DNA of 64,000 nucleotides from Ulva prolifera (taxonomy: Eukaryota; Chlorophyta; Ulvophyceae; Ulvales; Ulvaceae), in the NCBI GenBank assembly GCA_023078555.1, contig CM041196.1:1426001-1490000 (forward strand), written 5' to 3'. A program made the position numbers and the translations under genes. Below, one piece after another: positions 23,766-57,335 of the stretch; the stretch's first letter is position 1; every line of letters begins with the position of its first letter. The notes under the pieces are model-generated. The model saw only the letters and a list, made by a program, of their open reading frames with translations. It searched no databases and was not told the DNA's origin.

Positions 23766-25028
23766 AAACAATCTCACATGTGGAAACGCACTGAGTGCGT
23801 GCATCAGAAACACCTTCGTCATCGTGGGTGCTCTGCTATGCGCTGAGCGGCATGTACATACTGATGGCAATCGATCATTGCGCTGCGTGCCGCTTTGTAC
23901 ATATTTTTAGTTGGTGTGAAGCAATTCCGTGTTTTCCACATTTGTGGCCTGTAATTCTGTTGCACCATTGCTCGTCTCCAATTCTCGCTTGGTGACCTTG
24001 AACATCTCATGTTCGCTGCAGCACAGTGTATCTGTCCTGTGCACAGTAACGATATATCGCCCTCTTGCAGATGCTCACACTCCATTTCATGTCATGTCAA
24101 TCACAGCGTTGCAGCCATCACTGTCAGCAAATTTGTTGAGTGCCAAAATGGAATTCTTGGGCAGCACTGACGTATTATCAGTGGCGCTACGTACTACACT
24201 CTGGGTGTCAAGCGTGTTCACGCCGATAGCAGTCATTAATCAACCAAACACACAACCTGACATCACATGACTGGCGTAACCACCAATTGAAAACATCAGA
24301 ACCGTTCTCGCTCCCAATGTATGGACACAGCTGCACACCATATGTGGCACAGTGTGCCTGCACACTGGAAACATATTCACATAAGCATCAAGGCATGTCT
24401 AGTGCATGGAGTTTACAGCAAAGAGTGGCTAGTTGCATTTTCGAAGTTGGGAAGTGGCCTGGAACAAGCGGGCTCCCAGCCTCGTCTGCTGCGACAAGTG
24501 CTGCCGCTCCTGCGCAGATGTCATTCATGCTGCCCTCATGCGGTAGATGATAGAGCATGGGTTGGAAGAGACGTTCACAAGAATTGCGGCACATTTTCCC
24601 ACTGCCTCGCCTGGCAACACATCACCTGCCAACTGCAAAGTGCGGGCTTCCTGGACACATCCCGCCTCGCCGTCCATGCCTGCCAAATCAGACAGGTGTG
24701 ACCTTGCATGACCACAAAACTCACACAATAAGGTCTTCTTGGCGGAACATAGAAGCGTTACACTTTGTAGCACGGCGCGAGGGCTGTACAGGTCTGGCCA
24801 CACGCCACAGCTGAGGCCTCGGGAGGCCAGTAGCTAGGGGTCCCCTCGAAAGAGCGCACATGTAGCCATGAGCATCACAGAGCGCGCTGCTGCAACAGCA
24901 TCTATCCTGTCCGCATCTGATCAACATCGCGAAGCAACGCACACGATGCTACGAAAGAGACAAATGAGATACTTGCTGGTCTGACACAGAAGTCGTCCCG
25001 CCGTGCCTCGCATATACGCAGTGTCGAA
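23766..25028. other. Intergenic stretch
   Basis: About 1.26 kb between ferritin and the FN3-CS gene. Several 60-126 codon frames overlap on both strands, but none shows domains, transit peptides or a consistent splice structure. No repeat stands out. Confidence 0.4.
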
Positions 25029-25982
25029 ATGTTGACCACCCGTCAACTGCAGAAGCAGTGTACGTCCGCATGGACGAAAGCGCGCAAAATTCCCATTATC
25101 AACGCTTTGAGTCGAGTCATTTCCGTTATATGGCAACTTCTGCTTCCTCTGCTGAAGAAACTTCTGGGCACAACTCTGGCCAGGGCTCCCGCAGTTCCGT
25201 CACTACAAGTCATTGATGCAAGGTGCAATCGGGTGAAAGTGGAGATCATAGGCCCCTCAACGTCCTTCTTCAATGATGATGAATATGAAGTTGCGTATGG
25301 CTGCCAGCCTGAGGATCCTGGGGCTGCAGTGACTTGGTCATCGTTACCTCCGAAGCCATACTCTCATCGTGTGATCCCGCAGCTGTCCGGCAGCACAAAA
25401 TATATTGTGCGCGCACGGACTCATAACGTCAAAGGAAGTAGTGCTTGGGGACAGCCAGTGGTCGCGTCGACCTTGATCGAGCCCATCTCTGGCGGGGCAA
25501 AATGTGATGGGTACACCTGGACTCAGACCGGGATTGAAGCCTCAGTACGGTTGCATGTTCCTTCAGATGTGAAGGCAAAGAATGTTTGTGTATCATTGAG
25601 GCCGGAGCACTTAGCTGTATCATATACGCTTCATGGCGAGACTGTGAAGTTGGTTGAAGGTGTATTGCCGCAACGAGTCAGGCTGTTGTCGCCAGATGGT
25701 GGATCATACTGGGAAATTGATCGAGAGGGAGAGGAAGTGGCGGTCATTGTTGTTCTAGAGAAGGAGAAACCTGCTCAAACAATCAAATGGGGGTTTTGGC
25801 GCAGTGTGTTTGTTGATCAGCCAGAGATTGACACCCACGCGATTCTGTCAGATCCTCACGTCAAACCCATACAACCAAGCCCAGAAACGCCTGGAGCCCC
25901 TGGGTTGGATGTGAAATCAGTTTCAAGGAGGGAATATTCAGAATTGAGACGGCGATTGGGCCACAGTACCCCGGAGATCTAG
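25029..25982 (+). CDS. FN3 domain + CS (p23/NudC-like) domain protein
   Basis: Single-exon gene of 317 residues, unusual among the intron-rich genes here. Residues 1-50 include a hydrophobic stretch (VISVIWQLLLPLLKKLLG) that could be a membrane anchor or targeting helix. Residues about 58-150 form a fibronectin type III fold (YEVAYGCQPEDPG, TKYIVRARTHNVKGSSAWG). Residues about 160-255 form a CS domain: it starts YTWTQTGIEASVRLHVP, continues DVKAKNVCVSLRPEHLAV and ends with IKWGFWRSVF, as in NudC and p23. CS domains usually dock to HSP90 or act as small chaperones. The C-terminal 50 residues are Pro-rich and then basic (REYSELRRRLGH). The domain calls are my own recognition; the substrate is unknown. 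Confidence 0.85.
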   Translation: MLTTRQLQKQCTSAWTKARKIPIINALSRVISVIWQLLLPLLKKLLGTTLARAPAVPSLQVIDARCNRVKVEIIGPSTSFFNDDEYEVAYGCQPEDPGAAVTWSSLPPKPYSHRVIPQLSGSTKYIVRARTHNVKGSSAWGQPVVASTLIEPISGGAKCDGYTWTQTGIEASVRLHVPSDVKAKNVCVSLRPEHLAVSYTLHGETVKLVEGVLPQRVRLLSPDGGSYWEIDREGEEVAVIVVLEKEKPAQTIKWGFWRSVFVDQPEIDTHAILSDPHVKPIQPSPETPGAPGLDVKSVSRREYSELRRRLGHSTPEI

Positions 25983-27525: not shown

Positions 27526-30500
27526 CTAAACAATCGCTACAGAGCAGCGAATAGACTGGGAAACAAGCAGGCGGTGTTGGAGAGCAGGCCGCACCCAGAG
27601 AGCCTCGGGCTGGATCGCGTCCAGCTTGCCGCTGAGCAGCAGCCACAGCAGCGCGGCGGCCTCCGGCAGGCTGCAGCGGCCAGAGGGGGCCTCGGCGAGG
27701 GCGGCCTCCAGCAGCCGCGTGCGCCGCGCTGCGCCGCCGGCCGCGCCGCCGGCGCCACCGTCGGCCGCGTAGCGCTGCGCGTCGACCGCCTGCGTCAGCT
27801 CAAATCTTACCTGCACCCCGGCACCCCCCGAAGTCAGTATCTCCGCACGTCACTACTCGTAAGTGGCAGTTCCCCTTCTCCATCTCCCACATGCGCTCGG
27901 GGGAAATGGGCAGCGAGCCTGCGTCCCCTGCATGAGACTGGCAGAGCGGACAAAAAAAGCCAGGGGAGACGTCGTAGGCTATTGATCGCCATACAATTAC
28001 AAGTGTTTGTGAAAGTTTGAGTGTGGCGCTGCGACGACAGACGCCAGGGTTCAATTGGTTCAACAGAGAAGGTAAAGTCACGAGCGAGCGACGACACAGC
28101 ATCGGTGACCGGCCGCGCCGGGAGTCTTGCGCACCTTGGGGGCGAGGTCCTTGAGGGCGGGCGGGTACGCGCGGGCGCCGAGGCGGGAGAGGCTGGTCGT
28201 GCAGTCCATCGTCAGCGGCCGCGCGCCGCCGCCGGCGCGCTGCAGCACCGCCTGCCCGTCCGCGATCGACATGAACTCCTCCACCAGCATCGTCGCCTGG
28301 TGCTCCGGTGAGCCTGCATATGGCCGGCCCGAGTCACCCACTGTATCCCATGCACACTTCGCATCGCGCACAGCTCCAAAGTCTTGTGTACGGCCCCCTT
28401 CGCGGGTGCTCACGTGGGGGCTATTGGCGGGATGTGTGATGCATACACAAAGGGATATTCGCTGGACATGCAGTTCTGGAGTGGCTGGGACCTGCCAAAG
28501 AACAAGTGCCGCAAGCCACAAGCCGCAAGCCACAAGCCGCAAGCCACAAGTGCCGCAAGCCACAAGCCACAAGTGCCGCAAGCCGCAAGCCACATGCGCT
28601 ATGGAGTGCCGCAGCAAGGAGGTAGTCTTGTTTGAGTCGCTTGGATCGTGGCGAGACCGCGCAGTGCCATGTACAGGTAGCGCACCAGCCTGCGGCACGT
28701 GCGCCGCGGCCGCAGCCTCCGCCTTCGCGGCGAGGGCCACGGCCATCTTCTCCTTGAGCTCGGGGGAGAGGTGCTTGTACGCGTCGAGCGCCTTGGGCGC
28801 CCGGCTGCCGGCGGCGGTCGCCGCCGTCTTGTCACCCGATGCCGGGACGCCCAGCATGCCCAGCACAAGCGACAGCGTGCCGCCGCCCTGGTCGCGGCGC
28901 CGCTTGGCTGCACGCTGCAGCAGCGCGGAGAAGAACTTGCGGCGCTCCGCGGCCGCCGCCGACACGAGCATGCCGTCGAGCTCGACCATCTCTGCACAGC
29001 ACGCAGCAGTTGCAGCACATGGTAGTGGCATCTGAGAGATCGGATTGCCATCGGCAGGTGCTGGGGTCCTGATGGCTCTCTCTGAGCTGCATGTGGAGCC
29101 GTGCCACGTGAGTTGATCTGTGTTCGTACTGAGCACCAGCAGCATGGCTTGACTGCCAACTTTCCCACCCCAGCGACACGTGGTGTCTTACGAGCATTCT
29201 ACATCGTGTGTGTGCCAGACAACGGCATGTGTTGCTAGTGTGGCGGTATGTGGCTATGTATATGGCTGCCGATACAAACCAGCAGAAACTCAAATCGTCC
29301 GCAAACTGCAGACATCGACAGGTACCAGCAGCTTATGTTTCTTCAAGCCGGCTGTCTCGCAGTACATCAGGTGGCGACCTGACACGTGAGGCAGCGAGTG
29401 GGGTGTGGAGCGCACCGCCCGCCTCGTCTGCGGCGGCGCCGCCGCGCGCCATCCGCGCCGCGGTCTCCCACAGCGCCACCATGCACTCTGCCGAGTCCCC
29501 GAGCACGACCGCGTGGCCGCCGCTGTCCCGCACCGCCTCCCCGACCGCCATCGCAGCGCACAGCGCGGCGTACTGCTGCGCGCGGGGCGCCCCGGGCTCG
29601 GCGGCGACGACGGTCACGTGCGGCAGCCCGCCCGCCGCGCGCAGCGTCCCGATGCGGGCCTCCAGCTCCGCGGGGGCGCAGCAGGCGGTGTAGATGACAT
29701 GGACGTCGGGGGCGGCGAGGTTGGCGGCGAGGCGGAGCACGAGGTCGGAGACGGCGGCGCGCTCGGGGCCGGTGGCGAGCATGGCGCAGCCTCGCGCGAT
29801 CGGCGTCAGCACGTCCATCGCCTGCAGCACGCACACACAAACGTTTCTGCTGTTTTGAACTGCCTTTACGTTCAATATTCCGTGGCGTTCAACGCGTCAA
29901 AGCTACTGTGAAGTTCGGTGTGCAGAGTGACAGCGGCGCCCTGTGCCCTGTGCGCAGGTATGCGCGGCAGTGGGGGGCGGGAGCACTTTCATGCAGCGAG
30001 GGCGGCGCGAAGGCCAGCCTCGGCTGATGCATAAAAGAATGTGCACCGCACGAGGGGAGGGCCAGCCAGCAGCGGAACCGAACAGTGATCGCACCATGCA
30101 TTGACACACACGCACCGCGGAGACGGAGACGCCAGCACTACGACCGGCCACACAAACACGCATTGCCTGCTGTGCTGGTTCGCCATGGACACATGATTCG
30201 GAACGAGGAACACATGCTCCAGCTAGCTCATGCAATATGCTGGCACGTGCATGTGTGGATGGTCTGCAACTGACGTCGTCGTGTGGACTCCACAACGCAG
30301 AAGTTCTCAGAATATGAATGCGCGTTGGGACAATAGGATTGCATTCTGGGAGGAGCGCCGGATGAGACGCTGCATTCGGTCCCTCGGCAGCCTTTCAGCT
30401 CTGTGACTGGGCATGCATGCCGCATCACTGCATGCGCTTGACCGCAGCACTCGTTACCCAACAGCAGGTGTCTGCTGTACTCTTCTGCCTGATGGCCACA

Positions 30501-32279
30501 GTCTAGATCAACAGAGCGCATACAAACTACAGCTGGACGGTATAGGCACTTCCCCATTGCATTGGCCACAGTGGTGACTGCATTGTAAGCCCAGCAGCGG
30601 GTGGATGACACCAACATCACCCGAGATGCGCAGCTGGACGATGAGGATCTCCCCCTCGAGGCTGCAGTCTACGTGGCGCTAGATGCACGTCAGATGCTGC
30701 ACAGCTGCCAGACCAGCGACTCTGTGGCTATGCCGTGAGGACGTTCACATACAATACTGCCATGGTGTTCTGACACAGGACAGGTTACTACTGCTGTGTT
30801 CACATTCCGCTGCCCTGAACACAGGCGAATCCCAGTGGGAGCTCTTTCAAGAGAGAGAGAGAGAGAGGAAAAAAAAATCACATATGACGTTTCAGCAGAT
30901 CGGCTGGAGGTTCGCAACTGGCTGATAACACTGCGATGCAACAGACCAGTTCGGCCGATCGTAGAATCGTTTCACTGAGCGTGAAACAGCGAAGCGAAAC
31001 AGATATGATACGCTCACATCACGTCAATACACCGAGTTGGCTGCTGTGAAGCATAGCAAGCAATGCTTGTGTTCAGGGGCCATGTGCCAGCTGGAGGGGG
31101 TACCGCAAACGTGCAGCAGGCGCCACACACAAGCAAGGGTGGTACGAGGTGCGGAAGCACGAGACTCTATCACAGTGAGTTCGCCGTCACGTGCCATCGA
31201 CCTGTCACTTTGACTGATGATGGAACGGCTTGCCATCCACGAAGCGATCTGTGTGCTGGATGCATCACAGCAGATATCGTTCGGTGCACGAGGCAAGTGT
31301 GTTCTCTCACGAATGCGATTGACGACAAGCAGCAGCAGCACACCAGAACACCTGTGAAGAGAGGTTCGCTGATGACCTCGCGATCTCCTAGGGCCACCTG
31401 CTCATTCATGAGTGGCACAGGTGGGGCGTCTGCCACCGAACCGACAGCATCGGCTTCAGCATCCAGTGGCCGGCAAAGATGGTCCAGCACTTGACCACGG
31501 AGCTTGCTACCTGCTGGGACCGTGAACTTCTCGAATTCCAGGGCGAATTTCTTTTCAGTGCCGTCTTCATTCGTGGGCGCAGGGGCTGCGACAGGCTTCG
31601 AAGCCAATGCACATACTGCACTTGTCCCGGGCAAGCTCTCTGCGTCAGCGTCGCCGTAAGAAGTGACCAGGACGCTACAAACATCTATGCTGTGCCACCA
31701 GAGGAGCACCCTGCGATGTGGGGCGATGTAAGACACGTTCGCGAATCAGTTGCTGGCACACAGGCGAATGTGGGCGCATGGAATCGTACCCCTGCGCACG
31801 GTTGGAGAGGTTGACCGTCGTGCCCATGTGTGCGCTATCGTTGAGTCCTTGCACTAGAATGACGCCGTCCTCGTCATGGCAGAGGACCTGCAGCAACGCC
31901 AGCGTCATCAGCTTTTCACAGTGTTCGGCGCCTGCACTGATTGGGCATCCACAAGAATCTAAGATGCGTGTGTATACATGCTTGAAAGCCCCACTTCGCA
32001 CGACTGCTACGTCGGGCGTTGATTGGAGCGGCAGTGTGGCGTGAACAGCACCTTGCCAGTTTGCAGCTCCATCGCGCCATCTGGAGCTTCAGATGGACTC
32101 GGAGGAGCCACATCGCCTACCAAAGCATTACATTGCGTGAATCCAGCGCCACTTTGCGTTCCTTGTCCACTGGGAGGGGATAGGAAGTGCACGTGTTGAA
32201 AACGTTGCAGACTGCGGCCGAGCGCGGGAAACCGAACTAAGCTGAGCCGTTTACAGGACACACTATGGATTCTGCTCAT
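27526..32279 (-). CDS. Mitochondrial F1-ATPase alpha-subunit-like protein lacking the P-loop
   Basis: Seven exons with consistent phase: 32279-32052, 31887-31790, 31689-31344, 29821-29416, 28991-28686, 28313-28135 and 27810-27526 (615 residues). Exon 1 gives an Arg-rich presequence (MSRIHSVSCKRLSLVRFPAL) typical of mitochondrial import. The rest aligns end to end with F1 alpha: N-terminal barrel (DGVILVQGLNDSAHMG), VPAGSKLRGQVLDHLCRPLD, PLFTGVLAMDVLTPIARG, HAVVLGD, FFSALLQRAAKRRRDQGGG, IADGQAVLQ and SLSRLGARAY. The Walker A site is gone: the GDRQTGKT region reads ATGPERAAV. The Walker B region is weakened (VVLGDS). The arginine in SLSRLG, equivalent to the alpha Arg that reaches the beta catalytic site, is kept. 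This is a diverged paralogue, not the housekeeping subunit. The C-terminus is shorter than usual and could have one more exon. Confidence 0.85.
28506..28594. repeat. Degenerate gccgcaa/gccacaa tandem repeat
   Basis: Alternating gccgcaa and gccacaa units, occasionally with an inserted gt, fill about 90 bp of intron 5 of the F1-alpha-like gene (28314-28685). It is a simple low-complexity repeat with no sign of coding use. Confidence 0.85.
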
Positions 32280-32806: not shown

Positions 32807-34847
32807 ATGCGAGCTTTCTCCGGGCCTCGTTGCCTGCCTCAACGCCATGTGCCGCGTTGGCTGAAACAAGCACAGCCTAAGCGTCCATCACATCTTGATC
32901 CCGGATGTCAATTTCGGCAAGTCAGCTGCAATTCAGTTGCTGTTCGTAAGGTTCGCTGCTGCTGCTGCTGCTCGGAGCGGTGTCGCGCTGCAACGTCGAA
33001 TGCCATGCCAGGCTAGATCGCGTTGTTGAGGTTGAGCGCCGTATTGCTGTGGTGGTCCAGGGCGCTGATGAAGGCGAAGACACGCTATCGATCGACGACT
33101 ATCTCAAGAACGCAACTGCAGACCCGGTCCCGGGCGTCTACGCTATCTACGACACAAAGCGCTCACTTCAGTACGTCGGAATCGGCCAAGATGTGATTAC
33201 ACAGCTCAAGGTGCGTAAATCATGGACATCATTTTCAAACACGCGTACTTTTGGACGCAGCTGTCCCGAAGCGAGAAGTAACCTCGGTCACGCACAGCGC
33301 TGCGACACAAACCTTCAGCAGGGCTGCTACTCGTAGCGTCAGTCCGCACAGAGTCGACTTGTACAGGAGCATCGAGAGACTGTTGATGAAGACTTGTGTT
33401 CCTTTGTGCGGGTGAAGCTCTTCGCAAACTCATCCATGGCCACCGAGGAGAACCTCCTCCGCGAAGCTCAGCATTGGATTGAGGATGAAGGCGGGGTCAT
33501 GCCTCCAGGAAACGCAGCAGAGTCGCACCTCTGGTCGCCGTCGGCTCTCTCCAGCTCTGATGAAGACGATCAAGGCTCATCAGATGCAGTTGTCTCGCCA
33601 TTTTCACAAGCCACGGTGGGTCCCATTGTTGCGCATGCAAGCGACCTGACACCTGAAAACGCTACATCAATCTGCATAGCGTGTCCAAGGCACGTCTGAT
33701 CGTAGTCATCCTCGGTGGATGCTGCATTTTCACAGACTCACGCAGTCAGTCCATCGCCTCTCTGCATCCACCTGGCCTCTGAGCTGCACGTACATCCTTG
33801 CAGCATGCTCAGCACCTGTCACAGCACCAGCCTGCACAAAGGACGCGCTGGACATAGGCACACAAACTACGCATTCTCCCCTGCTCCACCTCCGGCCCCT
33901 CAGATCAGTCGCTATGAAGGCGCTGTTCCCAGATCACTCCTGCATGGAAGGGACCGCCCTTCCAGCCCACCAACCCATCCCCCCCGCCCCATCATGCAAA
34001 CACATTCGAATCACATGCGGTGCACTGGCTGCGCCGTGGCGTGTGCCTGCCCTCCGCCCGTTCACCACCCCCCACCTCCGGTCCCACAGCCACAACCAAT
34101 CCGACATGATCGTCGCACTGCCCTACCCTGGCAATCACGCACCATGGTTGGGTTGCCGGGCCCGATCGTATACAGCAACCCCACATACTCAGGTCAAATT
34201 CCTGGGTGACAGCCCAAAAAGTTATGCAAGGCGGCGCAACACGCGCGCGCGTGTCCTCGTCTTGTCTTCCATGTCGTGCCCCGTGCCTCCCCAATGCCGT
34301 CCTGCCAACAGCACATGCGCGCACGCAGGTCCACCGCGCCGTCGGCGCGCCCGACAGCGGCGCCCCCGTGAAGGAGCTCACCGTCGCCGCCGTCGACAAG
34401 GCCCTCGACGACATCCGCGGCTACCTCTTCGCCGACGGCGGCGACATCACCGTCGTCGACGTCACCCCGGACGGCGAAGTCCTCGTCCGCTTCGAGGGCG
34501 CCTGCTCCACGTGCTCCTCCCAGGAAACCACAATGACGATGGGCGTGGAGCGCGCGCTCAAGGGCGCCTTTGGGCCCGCGCTCAAGGCCGTCACGCCCGT
34601 GGAGGAGCCGCCCGCGGCGGCAGGGAGCCCGGCGGCGCCGCCGGTCGCGGACGAGGCGGCGATCGAGGGCCTGCTCGCGCTGCTGCGCCCCGCGGTGGAG
34701 AACTACGGGGGGAGCATGTCGGTGGCGGAGATCAGCGGGGGGGTGTGCCGGGTGCAGTATGACGGTCCGGACGCGATCTGGACGGGCGTACGGATGGCGA
34801 TTTCGGATAAGTTTGGAGAGACGATCACGACGATCGAGCGCGTGTGA
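32807..34847 (+). CDS. GIY-YIG-like domain fused to a two-domain NFU iron-sulfur scaffold
   Basis: Probable exons: 32807-32950 (basic, acid-poor transit-like start, MRAFSGPRCLPQRHVPRW), 33061-33210, 33352 to 33617 or 33694, and 34329-34847, all in phase 0. Exons 2-3 encode a GIY-YIG-type fold (VPGVYAIYDTKRSLQYVGIG, then FVRVKLFANSS and GGVMPPGN), like the N-terminal domain of plant glutaredoxin GRXS16. The last exon encodes a complete NFU domain with the cluster-binding CSTC motif (LFADGGDITVVDVTPDGEV, FEGACSTCSSQETTM), then a second NFU domain without CxxC (ALLRPAVENYGGSMSVAEI), as in plastid NFU1-3. NFU domains carry and hand over Fe-S clusters. Plastid targeting is inferred. The end of exon 3 is uncertain: the donors ACG|gtgggt and CAC|gtctga both keep the frame. 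Confidence 0.82.
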
Positions 34848-35676: not shown

Positions 35677-38253
35677 TCAGTAAAAGTTCACCGGCCTCCT
35701 CCCATTTGAACCCTGCCCACGCTGCCGCGGCCCCCGCCCCCGCCCCGGCGCCCCCCGCCCCTTCCCACCGCCCTGCCCCCCTTCAGGATACCGCGCACCC
35801 CCCCACGGCCGCGCCATCCGCGCCACCGGCACCGGATGCGGGTAGTCCCGCCCCACCACCACCCCACATTCCTCCTGCACCTTCGCCGGCATCGTCCACG
35901 GCTCATGCACGTACGCCGGCGGCACCCCCCGCAGCTCCGGCAACCAATGCTTCACATACTTCCCATCCGCATCGTAGTCCTTGCTCTGTTTCACGATGTT
36001 AAACTTGTTGATGCGGCCGCCGGTGAGGCCGGCTGCGGAGAGCCAGTTGCCCCAGTTGCTGGCCACGTCGTGGTCCAGGAGGTGGTGCTCGAACCAGGAG
36101 GCCCCCCGGCGCCAGTCGACGCCGAGGTCGAGGATGAGGAACGACGCGACGTTCTGGCGGCCGCGGTTGCTCATGAAGCCCGTCGCCGCGAGCTCGCGCA
36201 TGTTGGCGTCCACGAGGGGCATGCCCGTGCGGCCCGCCTTCCACAGCTCAAACAGCTGCACGCAGCGGCCACTTGATGTGTCGGCGGGGCACTGACGGCG
36301 CGGCGAGTGCGTGCTGTGTGTGCTGTGGCGTGCTGGGATGTGCTGGGGTGCGCGCGGACCAGCGTAGCGAGGTGATGTCGTGCGTGTGTGCGCATATGCG
36401 CAGATGAAACGACGGCGCTGATGAGCATGCAAACAGATTCACATGCCTTCATGCATGCAAGCAGACAAGTCCATGGCGCAGAGCGCCTGTGCGGCCGCCG
36501 CTGCTCGCACGTACGCAGCAACGGCACCAGAGGCAGCCCTTCAGCGAGTGTTGTTGATGTTTCACAACGCACCTCCTCGTCCGACGTCCACGGCAGCTGC
36601 TTCCCGATCGTCCCACCCTCGAGAAAGATCTTCGCGCCGTGCTTCACACAGAAGAACTTGAAGTAGTCGCGCCACAGCAGCTCAAACACGACCCAGTACG
36701 TGCTCTTGTTCTCCTTGCGCCGCGCCTCGTAGCGCTTGAGCTCGTGGTACACCGTCCGTGGCGACAGGCAGCCGTGCGCGAGCCAGGGCGAGAACTTGGT
36801 GGAGTAGTCCCCTCCGAGCATGCCGTTGCGGGTGTCAAAGTACGCGGCCACGCAGTCGGAGTCCCAGAGGTAGTACTTGAGTCGCGCCAGCGCCGCCTCC
36901 TCGCCACCCTGCACCGCGGCCCTCATGCATTGGCGCGACCGCGTGGCAGCGTCATCAATTGCGGTGTGTATGTGTGTTTGCATGTGCACAGAGCGATATC
37001 CATAGGGACTGTGACAACTATGACACCTGAGATCAGCAGTGGGGGGGTCTGTTCTTGTGATGTAGGCGCAGTGCCGCGGGTATGTGTCGTGCGGGGCTAG
37101 CGCATGCCCCGTTTGAGCCACGACCGCTCACCAAGGTAAAGGTGAAGGCTCATTGGAGCTCGGCCTCTTGAGCAAAGTTGCCTGCGTGCCCCCGATCCTG
37201 AGATCTGGACCGCAATTGCTGTCCATGTGCACTAGAGACCAATGCGCACACCCCGGCCACACATCATGATCAATTCCCTAGAAAGCGTACCTCGAACCAC
37301 AGCGCGGCATCAGGGTGCGGCGCCGGCGGCCCGGCCGCGCGCACCGCCTCGGCCAATGGCAGCCGCTCCCACACCGCCGCGCCCTCCCCCCGCCCGCGCA
37401 CCTCCTCCGGCACCGCCAGCTCCCCCTCCCGCGGCATGCGCGCCTCCTCGCGGATGCTGCACTTCGCCTCGATCGTCTTCCGCGCCGGGGTGAACGTGTC
37501 GGGCATGTCGGCGAGGTCGGCCGCGTAGGGGAGGTCTTCGATGTGGTACAGGGTGTGGTTCCACACTGTGCGGAGGCGGCCGCGGCCGCGGATGGCGGAG
37601 CGGAGGCGGTTCTCCACCACGGTCTCCTCATACGTGCCCTCCTCCGTTGCGATGACCGTGTCTTTGCCGCTATCGCTCAGGAGCCCTGCAGCGGGGCAGG
37701 TGGTGGTGGGTGGGTTGAGCTGGGTGTATCGATTCTCGAAGAGCTTGGGGCTTAGTCTGGTGCAGAACGGTCGTGGAAGCGAGGTCCGAGGCATGGATGC
37801 ACACAGCTACAGGGATCTACAAGTTCCAGAAGGAGCGCAGTGTAATGAGAAGAGCTGGCGTGGAGAACGTAAGAGCACGTCAGCCATGGAGAGCCGTCAT
37901 GCAATGGCTTGAGGTGGTGCTACGTGCTGGCTGCAGCTGTGGTTGCACTCACCTGGAATGACGTTCTCAGGGCGATCATAGAAGACCAGCAGGTCGGATC
38001 CGATCTTCTGCAGCGCCTTCTGCAGCACATTGACGCTCTCGAGCTGGAAGTGTGCTCGGAAGGCTCCCATCTTGGTGTCCCCGAGCATCCTGGCATGTGG
38101 ACGCCTGTCAAGCACGTTCTGGGCTGACATGAAGCGGTCGTCGAAGCAGAAGACTGGCACGACATCACCCTCCGCTGCAGCAGCCTCTGCAACTGCCACG
38201 TTGTCACGCAGGCGAAGGTCGTTGCGGAACCAAAGGATGGTGCGAGGAGGCAT
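35677..38253 (-). CDS. CRY-DASH: Cryptochrome DASH (CRY-DASH)
   Basis: This is a photolyase/cryptochrome-family flavoprotein; DASH members bind FAD and an antenna folate and repair pyrimidine dimers in single-stranded DNA, often in plastids or mitochondria. Exons 38253-37953, 37685-37291, 36908-36573 and 36255-35677 fit in phase and give 536 residues. The N-terminal Rossmann domain starts [18 protein letters not shown]-binding motifs follow: [65 protein letters not shown] and [17 protein letters not shown]. The C-terminus is Gly/Arg-rich and ends RRPVNFY, as is common in DASH proteins. An in-frame stretch upstream of the ATG (to about 38300) follows an AG acceptor, so a 5' targeting exon may exist. 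Divergent from the first ENT gene. Confidence 0.95.
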
Positions 38254-39348: not shown

Positions 39349-42300
39349 ATGCTACTAAGTGAAGATGCAGTGTTCTTCACTGTCGCGGTGCGGTCTCAAC
39401 CTGATTCAAATTGTGAGCCCGGTCGAACGTGGCTCGCCTCAGCATGCGAAAAAAGTTTCCGGCATGAAAATACACACACAGAGCACCGACACACAGCTCG
39501 ATTCATGCCTGGAGTGTCTGCATCTGCAGCGGTGCGCTGAGTTGCTGCCATACGTCCCTACGATGCAGTGCGAGGCATGTCACATTGGTACTCCAAGGCA
39601 CAGAGATCCAGCAATCACTCCAAACAGCTCGCCAACCTCGTGGTATCTAATTAGATGCTGTCATTGCACCAGTTCAGAGGTGGGTGGTGCTGCTACAGGT
39701 CGGCTTCACGATGCCGTGGGTCGCCTTGTCTTCCGAGCTCGGTTACCTCAAAATGCTCCATGGCCCACACTTCCTCCTCTGGCTCAACCTGGCCTACTTC
39801 ATGCCCAGTCTGCCGACGTTGATGCTGCAGCTTGTGTACGACCAAGCTTACAACAAGTACTTCGGCACCGCGGTTGCAACACTCATCCGCCAAGGCTGCG
39901 CCCAGACCGTCTGCGCCATTAGCTGCGTCGCCCTGCCCTTTCTCGACTGGAAAAGGTGTGTCTCGGTGTATGTCGGGTCGGCTCCTGCTCGAGTGCGCGC
40001 GGTCACTGCCGCGCAAGGTCATCGCCAAAGCCACAAGTGCTTCAGATGACAGTATGGGCCGAGCCGGTGAGGCCTCCAGATGTGAACTCATCTGAACCCG
40101 CGCGCACCCGCCGGCCCCGTCCGAGCACGTCATGCCGCAGCGATCCCCCGATGCTCAACAACGTGAATATGTTGTGCATGTTGTACAGCGCTCGGCCGGG
40201 GAAAAAATGCGTGTGCAACGGAAGGGCGGATCTGTTTCGCTGTATGGATCCACTTTGGATCAAGGAACTGACCCCACTGACAGCACTACATCTACCCTAC
40301 ACTGATTGACGTACTACGGCTGCAGATCATCCGCATGGGTGTATGCATGATATGCATGCATAAGAATCTATGTGTGGATGTGTGTGCACGCATGAGGGAC
40401 ATGAGTGCAAGGGAAGACCCCGTGCGACGCTCCGGCAGGCGGAGTCTAGACTGCCCCCCCTCCTGTGTCAGCCTTGTCAAGTACCACCAAGCTGCAGCAA
40501 CGCGGTCACTTTCCGCTGCACCAATGCACGCAAACCCATGGCTCTGCCGGTGGACACCAATCAGCCTTCCACACGAGTTTTCCAAAAGAACACGCCCCCC
40601 ACCGTTTTCCATTTGATTGAGCCCCCCACAGCTTTCCACTTGTGTGGCCATCGACACACCGAGCCGCGCAGAAGCGCACAGCGAAATGCCGCCATCGGTT
40701 CAGATAAAGATGACCACACCATCGCATGACGGGGTCACCTCCATGCATACCCTGTACAGCACCCACCGCGCCACCTCTGCGTCTGCGGTCCCAGCCCCAA
40801 CACAGACACCCCCAGATATCTCATTATCGCCCCCGCCCAGCGCGGGCCCCACACACCCCACACCCACACGCTGCGCCGCGGTTGCAGTGCCCCCACCCTC
40901 CTCACCATCACCGCCGTCGTTGGCGCCGCCGGCAGCGTGGCCTTCGGCAGCGCGAGCCAGCTCGTCGCGCGCTTCTCCGCCAAGTGCGGCCAGGCCCTCG
41001 CGCTCGGCATCGTCGCCGCGGGGCCCGCGGTGCTCCTCCTGCAGGCCCTCCTCCACCTCGGCGCCCACCCCTCCGCCCTCCAGCAGCACCTCTTCTTCCT
41101 CCTCGCCGCGCTCGCGCCCATCGGCGCCCTCACCTCCGTCACCACCCTCATCCGCCAGCACTGGAGCCACCTTCAAGAAGACAAAGAGGAGACGTCGCTC
41201 GCCGAGGAGGCTTCGTCCCTCCCGCCAGACACATCCTGGGAGGAGCCGTCGATCGATACGGCCCTTCTGGACGCAGTGGTTTTGGATGCCCCCTCTCTGG
41301 AGGACCTCGGCAGCATGGACTCGCTGCCCCCGATTGGGCCCGGGGGCGGGATGTCGCTGAGTGTGGCGGCGCCGCAGGAGGGCGCGGTGGCGGCGGCACG
41401 GGGGCCAGCGGCGTGGTCGTCGCTGCTGCAGTATGTGTCTGAGCAGCGGCTGCTTCTGCCAGAGTCGACGCGTGGTGCGCTGCCCACGGCTTGGGACTCT
41501 GCAGGAACAGACACTGCTGCTGCTTCTGCTGCTGCTGCTACACTGGCATGTCTCTACGACTGCGATGATGTGGGTGAAGGCTCCTGCAGTCTACCGGCTC
41601 GACAGATACGTACTTGTACATATACACCCGGCGACGAGAGCAACGACCTGCATGCTGTTTCTCCGCCGGAGCCGCATTCATGGCATGCTTGATGTACCGA
41701 TCTCGCTCAAACCGTTTGACAACAGAGCGGACCTACCTTTAGCCCAGAGCATCGCATTCCGTAGCTTAAGCACGGAAATCTGAATTCACCCTGGTGCAGA
41801 CAACTGGGACACGTTCAGCGTGCACAGCATGCCGGCGGTCGCACAGCCCCTCCTCGTCATCACCGCCGGCGCTGGCCGCGCAACGCAGCCGCAGTGCAAC
41901 GCCAGCGCCGTCGTGCGCGCGGTCGCGCCACTCGCGCTCAGCCTCAGCAGCAGCGTCGGCGTCGCCGTGATGCTGTTCCCGCTGTTCACGGTTGTGCGCT
42001 CGTCCGGGCTGCTGGGGGCGATGCTGCCGCAGGCGCTGTTCGTGGCGCGCATGCTGCCGGATATCCTTGGACGGATGGCAGCGCGGCACTACATGCCCTC
42101 CCTCCGGCTCCTCAAGGTGCGCTTCTTTTACTTAATAATGTCTCGACAGCTGGGTGGCAGTCGCTGTTCAAGTGCTCTGCTGTTATATCAGGTGCCGGCT
42201 TGAGAGACATTGTTTGGCACGTCGGAGCTTGCACTTGTTCCCCAACACCCTGAGACTGTGTGCCATGCGTTCTCAACCCAATTGCGCAGCACCGCAGGCC

Positions 42301-46813: not shown

Positions 46814-49383
46814 TTCCTTCTCCGCTGCCACTTATGCAACACACGTCAGCTCTCGTCTCGGCACAACCCGGGCACTTCAGCACAAGAGGATTGCCCCCCT
46901 TGGCCAGGACCTCGTAACAGTTCTCACTTGCGGCCCACGTGGCAGTGCTTGCCATTAGGTGCCCCTGCAGGGTGCTCCTGTAGAAGGCTTCTACCATGTC
47001 GGGGCCGTCGCTCTACAATCGCAATTGTGATTCGCGAAGCCAAGTCAGACTGCCTGCTGCAGTGAAACATTCTTCTCACATGTCACTGCAGTGATGATCA
47101 AGGCGCACCACCAACACTATCGGATTTGACTTCAGACTCATGATCACAACCGTGTTGGGTCGGCATCATCAGATCTGTGCGACGGGCACAGCACTGTGTT
47201 CTCGCGCTTAACGGTACCATGACCCCCCCTCACCCTCCACAAACGGATAGAATCGCTCAACTTGACACATGTGTGATGTTTGGTGACGCAGCCATCCAAG
47301 CCGCTCCGGATCCGAGCGCAGCTCACGTGCAGGAAGCCGGTGCTCCTCGTTGTCGCCGCCATCATCGGCGCCGCTGGCAGCGTGGCCTTTGGCAGCGCAA
47401 GCCAGCTCGTCGCGCGCTTCTCCGCCAAGTGCGGCCAGGCCCTCGCGCTCGGCATCGTCGCCGCGGGCCCCACCGTGCTCCTCCTGCAGGCCCTCCTCCG
47501 CATCACCGCCCACCCCTCCCCCCTCCAGCAGCACCTCTTCTTCCTCCTCGCCGCGCTCGCGCCCCTCAACGCGCTCTTCGCGATCTCCACCCTCGTCCTC
47601 AAGCACTGGGAGGAGCTCCAGGAGGACGCGCACATGCACGCGCACGGCCCGCACATGTCATGGGGACAGGGGACGATCTCCGAGAGCATGCATGAGAGCG
47701 CGGACCACGACTGGGACATCTCGCCGGGGCCGAATCCCCTCGCAGGGACCTCAGGGTTCCATGGCGGCTTGAGGGTGCCCCGGCGGAGCTCCGACTTTGG
47801 CGGCCTGCCGCGGCCGTACAGCGCCGACTTTTGCGGGCTGCCACGGCCGTTCAGCTTTGACTTTGGGGGCTCGCCGATGAGCAGCGCTGCTGCGCCGCTG
47901 CTGCCGGCAACGGACGAGATTGCCGTGATGGACCTGCTGCCGGCGTCGTTTGGGAGCATGCCGGGCATGATGCCGCAGGGCGCGGACGCGATGCTGCTGC
48001 TGCCGGACGCGACCGGTTGTGCGCTCCGAGCCGTGATCTGCTGGCTGGCCGCCATCCCGTCGGCGTGTCTCGTCGGTGATGTCGATGCTGCAGGATTGAG
48101 CAGCCGTAGTCAGCATGGGCTGCACACAGCACTCTGCATGCAACTTCACTCAAGTAATACCAGTTACTCATACTGCAATGGTGCCTACTTGATAAGCGTA
48201 TGACCGATTCACTGTCGATGGTGTAAGCGCAAAACTCCCTACGCCGCAGCAGGTGTGTTTGAAGCAGGTGTGTTTGAAGCGACATATGACCACATGCATG
48301 CACCAGCTGCATTAGAGGTGGCCGTGATGCAGTTGACCACGACCACGAGACGATGACCCTCCGGAGCTGCAGGAGCTGCATGACGACCATCCGTGCCATC
48401 CCGCCCTCCGTCCTCGCGGCCGGCCCCTCCTCGGTCATCGAGTTCGCGGTGCAGCAGGGCCTCTGGTCCGCGGCAAAGGCCGTCGCGCCCCTCGCGCTCA
48501 GCCTCGGCAGCAGCATGGGCGTTACCGTGATGCTGTTCCCGCTGTTCACGGTCGTGCGCTCGTCGGGGCTGCTCGGGAGCATGCTGCCGCAGGCGCTGTT
48601 TGCGGCATGCATGCTGCCGGACATCTTGGGTCGGATGATCGCCCGCTCCGGCGTCCCCTCCCTTGCAATTGTCGAGGTATGCCCAGCTGGCATGTTGGGT
48701 GTCTTATCTAGATTCCTGCCGCGATGCGTGAACTGCATGAACTAGAGAAATTCTAGTAGAGATCGTGACTTGAATTCCCTGTGCGGCTCAAGAACTTAGA
48801 GATTCCAGTCGCCACACCGCTAGCATGATGCCCAATCCTGACGTGTTTCTGTGACGGCGGCAGCCACTCGGGATTCAAACCGTGAGTCATTCCCTCGGAG
48901 GCACTTTCTGGGTCTTACGCTTGGAGTGTACACTGTACATGCGTGGCAACGGCAAGTAATGTGACATGCGACACCGCGGCCACAGGCCCTGCGAAGCACT
49001 GTTTACACAGCCATGCACACCCCTCCAGCCACACACAGGTCAGCAGCGTACGCGATTGTCTCCGGTCAGCACAACTGCAGTGCGGGCTGCAGGTGCTTGC
49101 AGTTGTGAAGTTTGCGTCGCTGGCGCCGGCGCTCGCGTACCTGTGGTTCCCTGCGCGCCTCCTCAGCGACGTCGCCGTCGTCGCCTTCGTCATCGTCCAC
49201 TGGCTGATCAACGGCCTGATCGGCGCGTGGGCGTACATGCTGCTGCCGCAGGCGCTGCCGGACCCGCAGGCGGCCGCGCTCGGCGGCGCCGTCATGAGCA
49301 CCGCCTTCCAGGCCTTCTCCATCTGCGGCCTGATAGCCGCGGTCCTCCTCGAGCACCTCGCCCACCCCCCCATGGCCTCGTGA
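46051..49383 (+). CDS. ENT-like (SLC29) nucleoside transporter, tandem copy 2
   Basis: Second tandem ENT-like gene and the clearest model: exons 46051-46140, 46517-46773, 47333-48015, 48333-48676 and 49093-49383, giving 554 residues. Exon 1 ends LEDYAFFSVA just before gtgcg; exon 2 resumes GFGMPWTALSSELGYLKTL, so TM1 is split by intron 1. Exon 3 carries TM3-TM6 and a loop of about 120 residues rich in Gly/Pro/Ser with a repeated pattern (SSDFGGLPRPY, SADFCGLPRPF, SFDFGGSP). Exon 4 has VMLFPLFTVVRSSGLLGS and MLPDILGRMIA, matching the ENT D..GR motif; exon 5 has the last helices. ENT proteins move nucleosides or nucleobases by facilitated diffusion or proton coupling. Intron 2 starts with a 35-base C run directly after the splice donor. 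Confidence 0.87.
46779..46813. repeat. 35-base poly-C run beside a splice donor
   Basis: An unbroken run of 35 C begins six bases into intron 2 of ENT copy 2 (donor CA|gtgtg). The other two copies have no such run at this place, so it arose after the duplications. Confidence 0.92.
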
Positions 49384-53172: not shown

Positions 53173-56100
53173 TTGGCTACAACTAACCCCGCGAGAACTG
53201 ATCGACGATACAGACGAGCTGCAGACGGAAGCATGGCCACGCCGAGGAGTGACACGAAGGAGCTTTCGACGTCAATATGGCAGAAGCTTGGTAGCAGGCT
53301 GCCGACGCTGGAAGACTATGCCTTTTTCAGTCTCGCAGTGCGCTCTTGCAATTGCTCATGAGCGCTTGTTGTCGGTCGCAACGTCACGGTATGTGCCGAA
53401 GCTCGGACGCAACAGCACCTGCTGCCTCGAAAATGCCACAGCAAGTGTCTCGAAGTATATACTATGCTTAGATATACGGCTGTTTGAACACGCCCATGAT
53501 TCGGACTCGCGTCCCCGGAGACGGCATGCTCATGCCAGCTCGAGTTGAGTCTTCAGACATCTGCGCGCCCTCCACCTGCGCGCCTTCCTGACGCCCCAGC
53601 GCCGTCAACAGCTTTTGAGATATTACGTCTCTTTCGTGAAAGAGCTGCGCGCGTTTTGCACGCTGATTGTGTTGCTGCTGGTGGTCTAGCTGCTGGCGCT
53701 CAACTCACATGACCTCGAGATGACACATGAGGCCGGTCCCTGATGACTGTTCCGCATCTGCGTGCGCCAACTTTGCACATCGCGATGCAAAGCATGATGT
53801 ACTGTCGTCTCCTGGGGAAGAGCTGTTCCCCAAGGTTGATACAGAGATTCCATGCCCCAGCCTTCACCTTATCGACTATGCAAACAATCCTTGTACAATC
53901 CTTGTACATGTGTTGCAGCATGTGCAGCGCACAGTCACTCTGATCAGTGTCCTCATGGGCTGCCTCACCTGCCCAGCCTGTGCACTGCTTGTATGACACA
54001 TGCTATGCAGTATGCATGTGATGCTGCCAGTACTGTTGCACAGCACTGGAGCTGTTGCCACTGTACATGTGTTACTCATGTCAGCTCGAGCAGCATCAGT
54101 AGAGCAGCATCAGTACCGCATCAATACACCGGTACTGATGCTAGGCTGTACCTACCAGCTGTATACCTTGGGTGCCACCTGTGGCGTTCCGGCCCATATG
54201 GGCCCAGGACCGGAGTGCCATCTTTTGTAGTGGTGATGCTGGCCCGGGCGTCTCATTTGTGGACTTTCCTGAGTGACTACTGTGCCTGCATGGCTATTGT
54301 GTTTGCGATACGAGCAAGTAATTATAAGCCTGACTATAGTATACTGCTGAGGGGACCGTCCCCTAGTGACTATAGCTGTGTATAAGCTTCGGGACTCTGA
54401 TGTTACATGTATACAAGGGCCCGGGCACGAGGACAGAATACTGCATATGTACATGTATGGAAGTGCCAGCATGTTGCCCTAACACGCCTTGTAACTTCGA
54501 AGCCTCAGTCTGTTCAAGCAGTCGGAAGTGTTAACGTCGGCAGCGGTCCACTGGTAGTACTGCTGTCGCGCGGGGAGCCTTCCGCCACATTCTTCGTGTA
54601 CACAACTTGCTGCCCCATGCTTGCTCACAGTCCTACTTCGATTCGCTTCTTGACGTGAAACAAGCGGTCGCGATGATTATATCGCTGCTGGCAGAGCTCA
54701 TATGAGGTCAATCATATGGGGTCGGTGATCATGCATGATCACCGACCCCGCTGCTTCCTCGGCGATCTGTCTCTAGCCCAGCCCAAATTTGAAGTTTGAG
54801 ACGAGGTGCTGTCATCAAGCATGCAGAATAGATCGCACCCCCTATATGTTGATAAATACAAAATTTCCAATCATGGAATTATTCCTTGTGATCGAGCCAC
54901 TCGAGGCGGCCCGATGACCCATCGCCGCTGAACGCCACAGCAGGCACGCATGTGCAGGTCGGCTTTGACATGCCGTGGACGGCACTGTCGTCGGAGCTCG
55001 GCTTCCTGAAGCTCCTACACGGTCCCGAGTTCCTGCTGCACCTCAACTTTGCCTCCTGCGCGCCCTGCCTGCCGACGCTCATCCTGCAGCTAATCTTCGA
55101 CCAAGGCCACAATCACCGCTTTGGCACGGCGCGCGCGACTTTGGTCCGGCAGTGCTGCTCGCTGCTGCTCTGCACGCTGTGCTGCGCCTCCCTGCCCTTC
55201 CTGCCCTGGTCCCAGTGCGCCCCGGCCATGCCACGCTGCCCATGCATGCGCAATGTAGACCCTAGGCCTGAAAAGCTGAGCTGAATTGTACATGCCAGCC
55301 AAATAGGTCCTGATGTAGATGTGGGGTATACACACATATGCGATTCCGCCACGTGCACCTGCCGTTGCACCTGCCGATCCAATCGTGGCTACTGCCACAC
55401 CCCGCCCACAATAAAGGTGTCTAGATCTGTCTAATGCTTCACCGCCACACTCATGCATGGTGAGCCAGACTCTACCGCATCAGCCCGACACGTGTTCTTG
55501 TTCGCGGGTGCAGGAAGCCGGTGCTGCTCGCGATCGGCGCGCTCATCGGCACCGCCGGCAGCGTGGCCTTCGGCAGCACTAGCCAGCTCGTCGCGCGCTT
55601 CCCGGCGCAGTGCGGCCAGGCCCTCGCGCTCGGCATCGTCGCCGGGGGGCCCACCGTGCTCCTCCTGCAGGCCCTCCTCCGCATCGGCGCCCACCCCTCC
55701 GCCCTCCAGCAGAAGGTCTTCTTCATCATCACCGCCCTCGCGCCCCTCAACGCCCTCGTCGCCGTCATCTTGCTGCTCCGCAAGCACTGGAAGGAGCTGC
55801 AGAAGGATCAGGGCGGCGGCATGAACGCGGGCCATGTGGGGTCGGCGGCGCCGTGGGAGCGGCCGTCGATGGACCACCTGTCGATAACGGATAGCCTGTT
55901 GGAGGGTGGCGAGTGGGAGAATCTAGAGGATGCGGAGGAGGAGGCGCTGCTGCCGGCGGCGACGCACGAAGAGGTGACCCTGCGTGATCTCATCCCCGCC
56001 GCGTTTGCCAACATCCCGCCGATGATGCAGCACGGCGCGGAGGCCGTGCTGATGCACCCTGACGCGATCCACCGCGACGGTGCGTTTAGATCTGATAGCT

Positions 56101-57335
56101 GCCAAATGCAGCCGCATCGCATGCGACATGCAAAGATCTTGATGCAAATGTGAACTTTGGCAAAAGCAAGCGCCAGCAAAACTCCCGAACCACCAAAATC
56201 TCATCCCAAAACTGATTGAAAAGTGGCCCAGGCAAATACCAGCGACGCGTGCGCAGGTGACTGCGACGCGATGACGGTGCGCAGCGTCGCGATGACGGTG
56301 CCGACGATCCCGCCCTCGGTGCTCGCGGGCGGCCCCGCCTCCATCATCGAGTTTGCGGTGCAGAACGGCCTGTGGGCCGCGACCAAGACGGTCGCGCCGC
56401 TCGCGCTCAGCCTCGGCAGCAGCGTCGGCGTCACCGTGATGCTGTTCCCGCTGTTCACGGTCGTGCGGTCGTCGGGGCTGCTCGGGAGCATGCTGCCGCA
56501 GGCGCTGTTCGCAGCATGCATGCTGCCGGACATCCTCGGCCGGGTGCTCGCCCGCTCCAGCCTACCCTCCCTCGCCACCGTCGAGGTACGAATCCCCTCC
56601 TCAGCGATACCGTTCTGTGTCGCCCGCCGCTGCTCTGCAAGCGCACCTGTTTCACCGAGTGCGGCTGACGTACCTGTGGTATGGTGTCGCGATTGTGACC
56701 GATTACCCACCCGCAATTTGCCTGTGCGGACGCCCTGGAGGCGCAGTACTCGGCTCGAGCATGGGAACATCAAACCTGCCTTCTATCGCCACTTAGTCTG
56801 CGAATGAGCAGACACACGAGCTGTCACTGTCCCAAGAGGATACGGGTAGGCGCATCGAGATGCACTTTGCTTTGCACAAGCACTGCATCGCTTGTTGGCC
56901 GCAGCCGTCCGCTCGGCCTACAGCTACGCCGCTCGGCGCGACTACATTAACAACAAACACACACATGCATGCAGAGATCGATGAAACATGACCCGCCTGG
57001 AAAACCCGGCGCCCCAGCGCGTGCTCGCTCGTATGCAGGTCCTCGCAGCGGTGAAGTTTGCATCCCTCCTGCCGGCGCTCGCGTACCTGTGGTTCCCGGC
57101 GCGCCTCCTCAGCGACGTCGCCGTCGTCGCCTTCGTCATCGTCCACTGGCTGCTCAACGGCCTCATCGGCGCGTGGGCGTACATGCTGCTGCCGCAGGCG
57201 CTGCCGGACCCGCAGGCGGCCGCGCTCGGCGGCGCCGTCATGAGCACCGCCTTCCAAGCCTTCTCCATCTCGGGCCTCGGCCTCGCGCTCCTCCTCGAGC
57301 ACGTCGCGCGGCCCCCGACGGAGCTCCTCCCGTGA
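53173..57335 (+). CDS. ENT-like (SLC29) nucleoside transporter, tandem copy 3
   Basis: Third tandem ENT-like gene. Exons 53173-53337 (or from the inner ATG at 53233), 54958-55214, 55514-56079, 56257-56585 and 57039-57335, with the same phases as the other copies; 537 or 517 residues. Exon 1 ends LPTLEDYAFFSLA, matching copy 2, which supports its distance of 1.6 kb from exon 2. Exon 2 (257 bp in all three copies) has MPWTALSSELGFLKLL; exon 3 ends in an acidic loop (EWENLEDAEEEALLPAA); exon 4 has IPPSVLAGGPASIIEFAVQ, VMLFPLFTVV and DILGRVLARS; exon 5 has LIGAWAYMLLPQALPDP. Copies 2 and 3 are more alike than either is to copy 1. Intron 1 holds a 32-bp perfect palindrome. Confidence 0.86.
54718..54749. 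repeat. 32-bp perfect palindrome
   Basis: The two 16-base halves (ggggtcggtgatcatg and its exact reverse complement) abut with no spacer. It lies in intron 1 of ENT copy 3, about 210 bp before exon 2. Confidence 0.92.

Follow-up and report, generated by a model that had tools for sequence, protein, structure and literature searches.

What becomes of an F1 alpha subunit once its nucleotide-binding P-loop is gone? The question is raised by a gene, here called pseudo-alpha, in a 64-kb window of the Ulva prolifera genome (C1:1426001-1490000; positions given without a contig are window coordinates). Few proteins change as slowly as F1 alpha, and engineered mutants have been used to ask what its noncatalytic nucleotide does; a naturally occurring derivative of alpha that lacks the nucleotide site would offer a natural test case for that question. 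Judged by its sequence, the pseudo-alpha protein is derived from alpha, yet it is as distant from alpha as other subunits are. We consider it quite possible, though short of probable, that this nuclear gene encodes a mitochondrial, nucleotide-free, alpha-folded protein that pairs with F1 beta in an accessory, assembly, or regulatory capacity and is not one of every enzyme's three alphas.

The pseudo-alpha gene and its altered motifs

The gene lies on the minus strand (32279-27526), and its seven exons, spliced in phase, give a reading frame of 595 codons closed by a stop. All six introns (164, 160, 1522, 424, 372, and 324 bases) run GTG...GCAG. A preliminary description of the locus had proposed a seven-exon gene for a 615-residue protein; the exons, the consistent splice sites, and the intact frame stand, and the length becomes 595 with a slightly different splice model. 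The chance of a stop-free frame over 595 codons, given each exon's own base composition, is ∼3e-6, a rough guide, the exons having been picked as open. Searches of the genome (88.9 Mb, 44 contigs) found no second copy: all seven matches at E ≤1 were the gene's own exons.

The coding signal is uneven. The GC content at third codon positions (GC3) is 0.96, 0.93, 0.98, and 0.81 in exons 4 to 7, with an overall GC of 0.55 to 0.60 in the introns. Exons 1 to 3 (GC3 of 0.47, 0.76, and 0.55) are without the high-GC3 signal, and what supports this part of the predicted gene is homology and splice sites alone. The shift, from 0.47-0.76 to 0.81-0.98, falls at the 1.5-kb intron. Exons of the neighboring NifU and photolyase-domain genes have GC3 of 0.91 to 0.92, like exons 4 to 7, and the pooled beta and V-ATPase A pieces of the same genome have 0.57; thus, both GC3 styles are present in this genome. 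The N-terminus resembles a presequence, as had been proposed, with six arginines or lysines in the first 40 residues and the first acidic residue at 56; its helical moment is modest (0.40, residues 10 to 27). Solid homology to alpha is lacking over residues 1 to ∼70; the TIGR00962 match begins at residue 74 and the NF009884 match at residue 82.

Inside exon 4, GPERAAVS stands where alpha has its Walker A motif, GDRQTGKT, with AMDVLTPIARG on one side and VHVIY on the other aligning to alpha. From 33000 to 27400, none of the three minus-strand frames contains a GxxxxGK[ST]. The proposed loss of the P-loop is thus confirmed. A wrong splice model hiding a P-loop is rejected by the frame search, and it is scarcely credible that a gene-model or assembly artefact conceals a normal alpha at a site that lies in a single exon with both flanks aligned. 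Two other motifs are altered (GQKRS to CAPAE and LLKQPQ to ALAEAP), and the RPPGREAYPG loop, which faces the rotor in F1 alpha, is gone. In contrast, NVISITDGQ is kept as EFMSIADGQ and LSVSRVG as TSLSRLG, the latter with its arginine finger, as the preliminary description had reported; in alpha, segments of the SIADGQ and SLSRLG type reach the beta catalytic site. The residues that alpha contributes to this site, which we take to be S344 and R373 in bovine numbering, both have equivalents in pseudo-alpha. The spacing from G-GSL to SITDGQ is 81 residues in pseudo-alpha versus 26 in the three alphas measured.

Conservation was counted against 65 alphas, obtained from 80 fetched loci by filtering for length and for the motifs GDRQTGKT, YDDLSKQA, and RPPGREA. 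The invariance of these three motifs in the set is therefore by construction, and "near-invariant" is inflated by the many alphaproteobacterial loci among the 80. Pseudo-alpha keeps 73 of 216 near-invariant columns (34%). Because so few survive overall, the contrast between a lost P-loop and a kept arginine, which had been read as a selective pattern, carries no statistical signal and is descriptive: keeping at most one of the eight P-loop residues has P = 0.18, within chance. A different pattern does emerge. Near-invariant columns are retained more often than variable ones (73/212 aligned versus 51/255; p = 5e-4), and among the near-invariant columns glycine and proline are retained more often than the rest (26/48 versus 47/164; p = 0.0017). 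Neither excess is expected from free drift. By exon, retention is 15/29 in exon 6, which carries the arginine-finger segment (p = 0.03 without correction for the seven exons), and 4/22 in exon 7 (p = 0.07), where the conserved C-terminal positions are mostly lost.

Family relationship, predicted fold, and the normal alpha

Profile and PDB sequence searches place the protein nearest to alpha. In NCBIfam, the whole protein matches the alpha families NF009884 (1.2e-31) and TIGR00962 (7.1e-20) and the alternate alpha family (1.3e-18), ahead of FliI (2.1e-12) and beta (0.002), although the curated cut-offs are not reached (71.2 versus 484.45 bits for TIGR00962; 109.9 versus 554 for NF009884). The Pfam match to PF00006 (1.4e-10) is above the family cut-off. 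A PDB search gave 99 distinct sequences at E ≤1, the best 60 of which all belong to F1 and, in every entry whose name specifies the subunit, to alpha; exon 5 onward alone also finds F1 alpha first (4.9e-6), with a chloroplast alpha as the best match. Pseudo-alpha scores 56 to 66 bits against six bacterial alphas; against proteins of its own genome it scores 13 bits with beta, 9 with V-ATPase A, and 7.3 and -3.9 with the larger and smaller V-ATPase B pieces. An alpha profile gives it 63.3 bits, and 200 shuffled copies at most 1.1. Identity to each of the three measured alphas is 24 to 25% over 465 to 467 positions (aligned with the 65 bacterial alphas).

Other identities were considered and rejected. 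A V-ATPase B subunit is contradicted by the scores of 7.3 and -3.9 bits, and no B family is among the 19 NCBIfam matches. A FliI/SctN export ATPase is contradicted by the lack of a catalytic P-loop and by a match weaker than that to alpha. The marks of a nuclear mitochondrial DNA insertion or pseudogene (AT richness, proximity to atp1, a broken frame) are absent from pseudo-alpha, unlike from an atp1 fragment on C7 described below.

An AlphaFold model of exon 4 (135 residues), computed from an alignment that included 26 bacterial segments, has a predicted local distance difference test score (pLDDT) of 79 and a predicted template modeling (TM) score of 0.73, with alternating strands and helices. 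For this alignment, A1, the criteria applied to the 80 loci were PIGRG and RPPGREA(Y/F)PG and not the P-loop; 26 of the 33 bacterial segments so chosen were used. Nine of 14 ten-residue blocks have a pLDDT of 82 to 92. The weakest inner block (exon 4 residues 11 to 20, pLDDT 57) leads into the former P-loop (18 to 25), and the next block returns to 82. Among the best 50 of 1,262 Foldseek matches (E ≤10), 48 are F1 ATPases or ATP synthases, one is an engineered V1, and one is an export ATPase; the best has an E value of 3.1e-4 and a TM score of ∼0.6.

Does the cell have an alpha gene besides pseudo-alpha? A TIGR00962 search of the contigs found no intact normal alpha, only broken, AT-rich atp1 fragments. 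The main one (C7:4780406-4781032) matches mitochondrial alphas better than a chloroplast alpha (5.6e-33 versus 5.4e-25); its first 81 residues are 64 to 75% identical to the 80 bacterial loci, and its GC content is 44%, versus 50 to 66% in 2-kb blocks of the window. Two weaker pieces lie on C5 and C7 (TIGR00962 E values of 0.01 and 0.5). There is no cox1 match in the contigs, and the nine PF00006 matches, assigned by position and reading, are V-ATPase A, V-ATPase B, a mitochondrial-type beta, the atp1 fragment, and the window exon; the assembly therefore appears to include neither organelle genome. Given the mitochondrial-type fragment and the absence of cox1 from the contigs, the normal alpha is probably mitochondrial, and pseudo-alpha is probably not the cell's only alpha gene. 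Ulva mitochondrial DNA is described as encoding atp1, most mitochondrial genes having been relocated to the nucleus in the Chlorophyceae (PMC4388391), and atp1 is also listed in Trebouxia mitochondrial DNA (PMC6547736). The simplest reading would thus be a normal atp1 in mitochondrial DNA beside a divergent nuclear pseudo-alpha gene. A normal ATP1 elsewhere in the genome, which the preliminary description anticipated, is represented by broken pieces, none intact.

The C7 fragment is interrupted by a 294-base element (C7:4780493-4780786) with TTAAGT at each end. The element occurs at no fewer than 40 genomic places (at least 40 including this one), many of them paired 561 to 562 bases apart, and by eye it has putative tRNA-like A and B boxes.

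Partners of an F1 alpha are also encoded. The beta gene piece is nearest to mitochondrial beta, its best PDB match being chain 6rd4_X (2e-74, versus 3.6e-64 for bovine), presumably from the green alga Polytomella. The genome also holds two gamma loci and a match to ATP12, a chaperone of alpha. Together with two nuclear RbcS loci, the beta match would put the genome in the green lineage. The second gamma locus (C5, near 5646903-5647231) runs into a long N stretch. No IF1 match in the genome reached the family cut-off in an intron-blind search that likewise gave no positive in 14 control genomes; two matches below the cut-off were set aside, their translations being unlike IF1 by eye.

Possible roles of pseudo-alpha

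In the reading that we prefer, pseudo-alpha would descend from F1 alpha and retain an alpha-like fold. It would have lost nucleotide binding, as suggested by the missing P-loop and by the loss of most of the noncatalytic pocket (the pocket residues considered were, in bovine numbering, Q208, E328, Q430, Q432, S344, and R373, with S344 and R373 assigned to the catalytic site; the comparison at E328 is unsure, as inserted residues begin there). It would be imported into mitochondria, given that the N-terminus is rich in arginine and that its first acidic residue comes at 56, and its alpha-type face may bind F1 beta. This reading is supported by the open 595-codon frame, alpha as the nearest family, preferential retention of near-invariant columns and of glycine and proline, the kept SIADGQ and SLSRLG in the best-conserved exon, and the finding of no second copy. 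The neighbor-like GC3 of exons 4 to 7, the predicted strand-helix core of exon 4, the presequence-like N-terminus, and the beta, gamma, and ATP12 loci speak for it as well. Replacement of alpha in some hexamers, suggested in the preliminary description, is possible but less likely: the lost RPPGREAYPG loop, the lost C-terminal positions, and the ∼55 extra residues oppose stoichiometric use in a hexamer, and for this reason we favor an accessory or assembly factor. The first two losses, taken with the good retention of glycine and proline, would also suit a protein that still folds but no longer works within the hexamer.

Several observations weigh against this view. Some of the pocket residues persist (GIRP as GARP, and one aspartate of YDD, in GDS), and beta binding would depend on few kept residues. 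The exon 4 model was built on an alignment of normal alphas, which biases it toward an alpha fold. On the alpha profile where pseudo-alpha scores 63 bits, the beta of the genome scores higher, at 83, and the two V-ATPase B pieces reach 63 and 52. The branch of pseudo-alpha is saturated, at 10.2 substitutions per site with an adjacent support of 30, so that the parent gene (a mitochondrial, plastid, or other bacterial alpha) cannot be named. Relatives were not found in the scanned viral contigs, an unsuitable place for algal genes, so this says little.

Among other explanations, a job outside F1, with the fold retained as a scaffold for another complex and no contact with beta, is unlikely but a serious candidate. 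About two-thirds of the near-invariant columns are lost, the rotor-facing loop and most conserved C-terminal positions are gone, and 55 residues have been added before the arginine-finger segment; precedent comes from Drosophila ATPsyn-beta-like, described at centromeres (PMC6045659). However, the presequence-like N-terminus argues against such a role, as does the fact that the best-conserved exon is the one carrying the segments with which alpha extends to the catalytic site of beta. A protein that had left F1 would illustrate the extent to which this fold can diverge without disruption of the gene. Extreme divergence and the missing codon-position signal of exons 1 to 3 would also suit a gene that is specific to its lineage, has no important function, and is evolving under relaxed constraint or being lost. 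We think this improbable for a gene with seven exons free of stops and frameshifts, consistent splice sites, a strong codon-position signal in exons 4 to 7, and preferential retention of near-invariant and structural positions.

Quite improbable, too, is a natural deltaNC alpha acting as a brake, which would sit in some mitochondrial F1 hexamers and give its arginine finger for ATP synthesis, its empty noncatalytic site leading to MgADP inhibition of hydrolysis. The presumed catalytic-site residues S344 and R373 have their equivalents, and the IF1 search described above, with its limits, found nothing at the cut-off. Bacillus subtilis F1 with alpha K175A/T176A starts at the wild-type rate and falls to 2.7 to 13% of wild-type steady-state ATPase (PMC4171097); a mutant that stalls after a normal start makes a braking pseudo-alpha conceivable. 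Against it stand the ∼25% identity to each measured alpha, the lost loop, the 55 extra residues, and the mostly lost C-terminal positions. Location in the plastid, as a relative of the chloroplast enzyme, is very improbable, and here the clues to the parent conflict. An insertion of 8 to 10 residues that alphaproteobacterial alphas carry before the YCIYVAIGQK strand is absent from pseudo-alpha, and in the PDB the C-terminal half matches a chloroplast alpha best (4.9e-6). The RDxGxHA segment points the opposite way: GEAVRDSGGHAVV is similar to GEYFRDNGxHALI of the aligned bacterial alphas, the chloroplast form presumably being different. By eye, the arginine-rich N-terminus is also unlike those of RbcS and of the longer gamma gene of the same alga.

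The features of the gene and its neighbors are collected in the table below. Three related open reading frames (ORFs) on the plus strand, possibly a local gene array, have in common GSVAFGS.SQLVARF..CGQALALGIVA.GP.VLLLQALL, and none has a Pfam match at E ≤0.01.

Table. Exons and motifs of pseudo-alpha and neighboring loci, in window coordinates
Feature	Position	Strand	Content
Exon 1	32052..32279	-	Start codon, presequence-like N-terminus, beginning of beta-barrel
Exon 2	31800..31887	-	Part of N-terminal beta-barrel (VLCHDEDGVILVQGL...), from the NF009884 match starting at residue 82
Exon 3	31344..31639	-	Barrel exit and hinge (VPAGSKLRGQVLDHL...EPLFTGVL)
Exon 4	29416..29821	-	Core of nucleotide-binding domain; PF00006 match; AlphaFold model and Foldseek
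Former Walker A/P-loop	29747..29770	-	GPERAAVS where alpha has GDRQTGKT
Exon 5	28686..28991	-	LLQRAAK...GGGTLSL segment, then insertion rich in alanine and lysine
∼55 residues extra relative to alpha	28686..28851	-	From the last part of exon 5 into exon 6, with approximate limits
Exon 6	28135..28313	-	SIADGQ...SLSRLG; best-conserved exon (15/29 near-invariant columns kept)
MSIADGQ	28252..28272	-	Equivalent of alpha ISITDGQ, within exon 6
SLSRLG	28194-28177	-	Arginine-finger equivalent, codon 28183..28185
Exon 7	27526..27810	-	C-terminal domain and stop codon; poorly conserved (4/22 near-invariant columns kept)
NifU-like domain gene	34374-34847	+	PF01106, 1.5e-23
Photolyase FAD-binding domain	35677-36438	-	PF03441, 1e-58; more exons upstream by eye
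ORF with CS-domain match	24921-25982	+	PF04969, 2.9e-4; fibronectin-like sequence by eye
Related ORF	40730-41692	+
Related ORF	47277-48203	+
Related ORF	55464-56153	+

Comparison with known rotary ATPase subunits

Pseudo-alpha shares with F1 alpha (TIGR00962, NF009884; atp1) the hinge, the core of the nucleotide-binding domain, the SITDGQ and SVSRVG segments, and the domain order. It differs in having no P-loop, QKRS, RPPGREAYPG, or KQPQ, in the 55 added residues, and in an identity of ∼25%. Engineered deltaNC F1 has the same combination of an alpha fold without noncatalytic nucleotide binding (PMC4171097), reached there by two point changes (alpha K175A/T176A), unlike the wholesale divergence of pseudo-alpha.

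The preliminary description knew of no equivalent, and in this it does not hold. V-ATPase B, the noncatalytic subunit, and its A-ATPase counterpart likewise lack a P-loop and keep an arginine-finger SLSRL; the B gene of the same genome, identified as TIGR01040, shows SIARGQKIPLFSAAGLPHN and SLSRL. In eubacterial V-type ATPases, subunit B, which is noncatalytic, is reported to bind no nucleotide (PMC4171097). The sequence affinity of pseudo-alpha is to alpha instead; if the brake reading were true, it would be an F-type parallel to the V-ATPase B arrangement. A rotary subunit without a P-loop that keeps its arginine finger is thus already known, and an F-type alpha version is apparently undescribed in the open-licence literature searched: among the matches listed, judged mostly by titles and abstract openings, no P-loop-less mitochondrial alpha paralogue is described.

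Other lineages have also changed or enlarged their F-type enzymes. The alpha of the Mycoplasma F1-like or G1-ATPase is another divergent alpha paralogue, in an F1-like complex, but it retains a P-loop, given as GDRGTGKT (PMC11864180), and Walker consensus sequences are reported in proteins 6 and 7 of the F1-like system (PMC3369863). Drosophila ATPsyn-beta-like (PMC6045659) and Knon (PMC5364652) are described as lineage-specific F-ATPase paralogues with accessory or noncanonical roles, of beta and d rather than alpha, the former being given as 70% homologous to beta. The chlorophycean ASA proteins are likewise additions to an algal mitochondrial ATP synthase, in this case subunits of the peripheral stalk, several being predicted coiled coils; an excerpt of their description draws no tie to alpha (PMC6131620), and nothing among the best 60 of the 99 PDB matches of pseudo-alpha links them to it. 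As an accessory partner of beta, pseudo-alpha would join these lineage-added parts of the mitochondrial ATP synthase as a pseudo-subunit.

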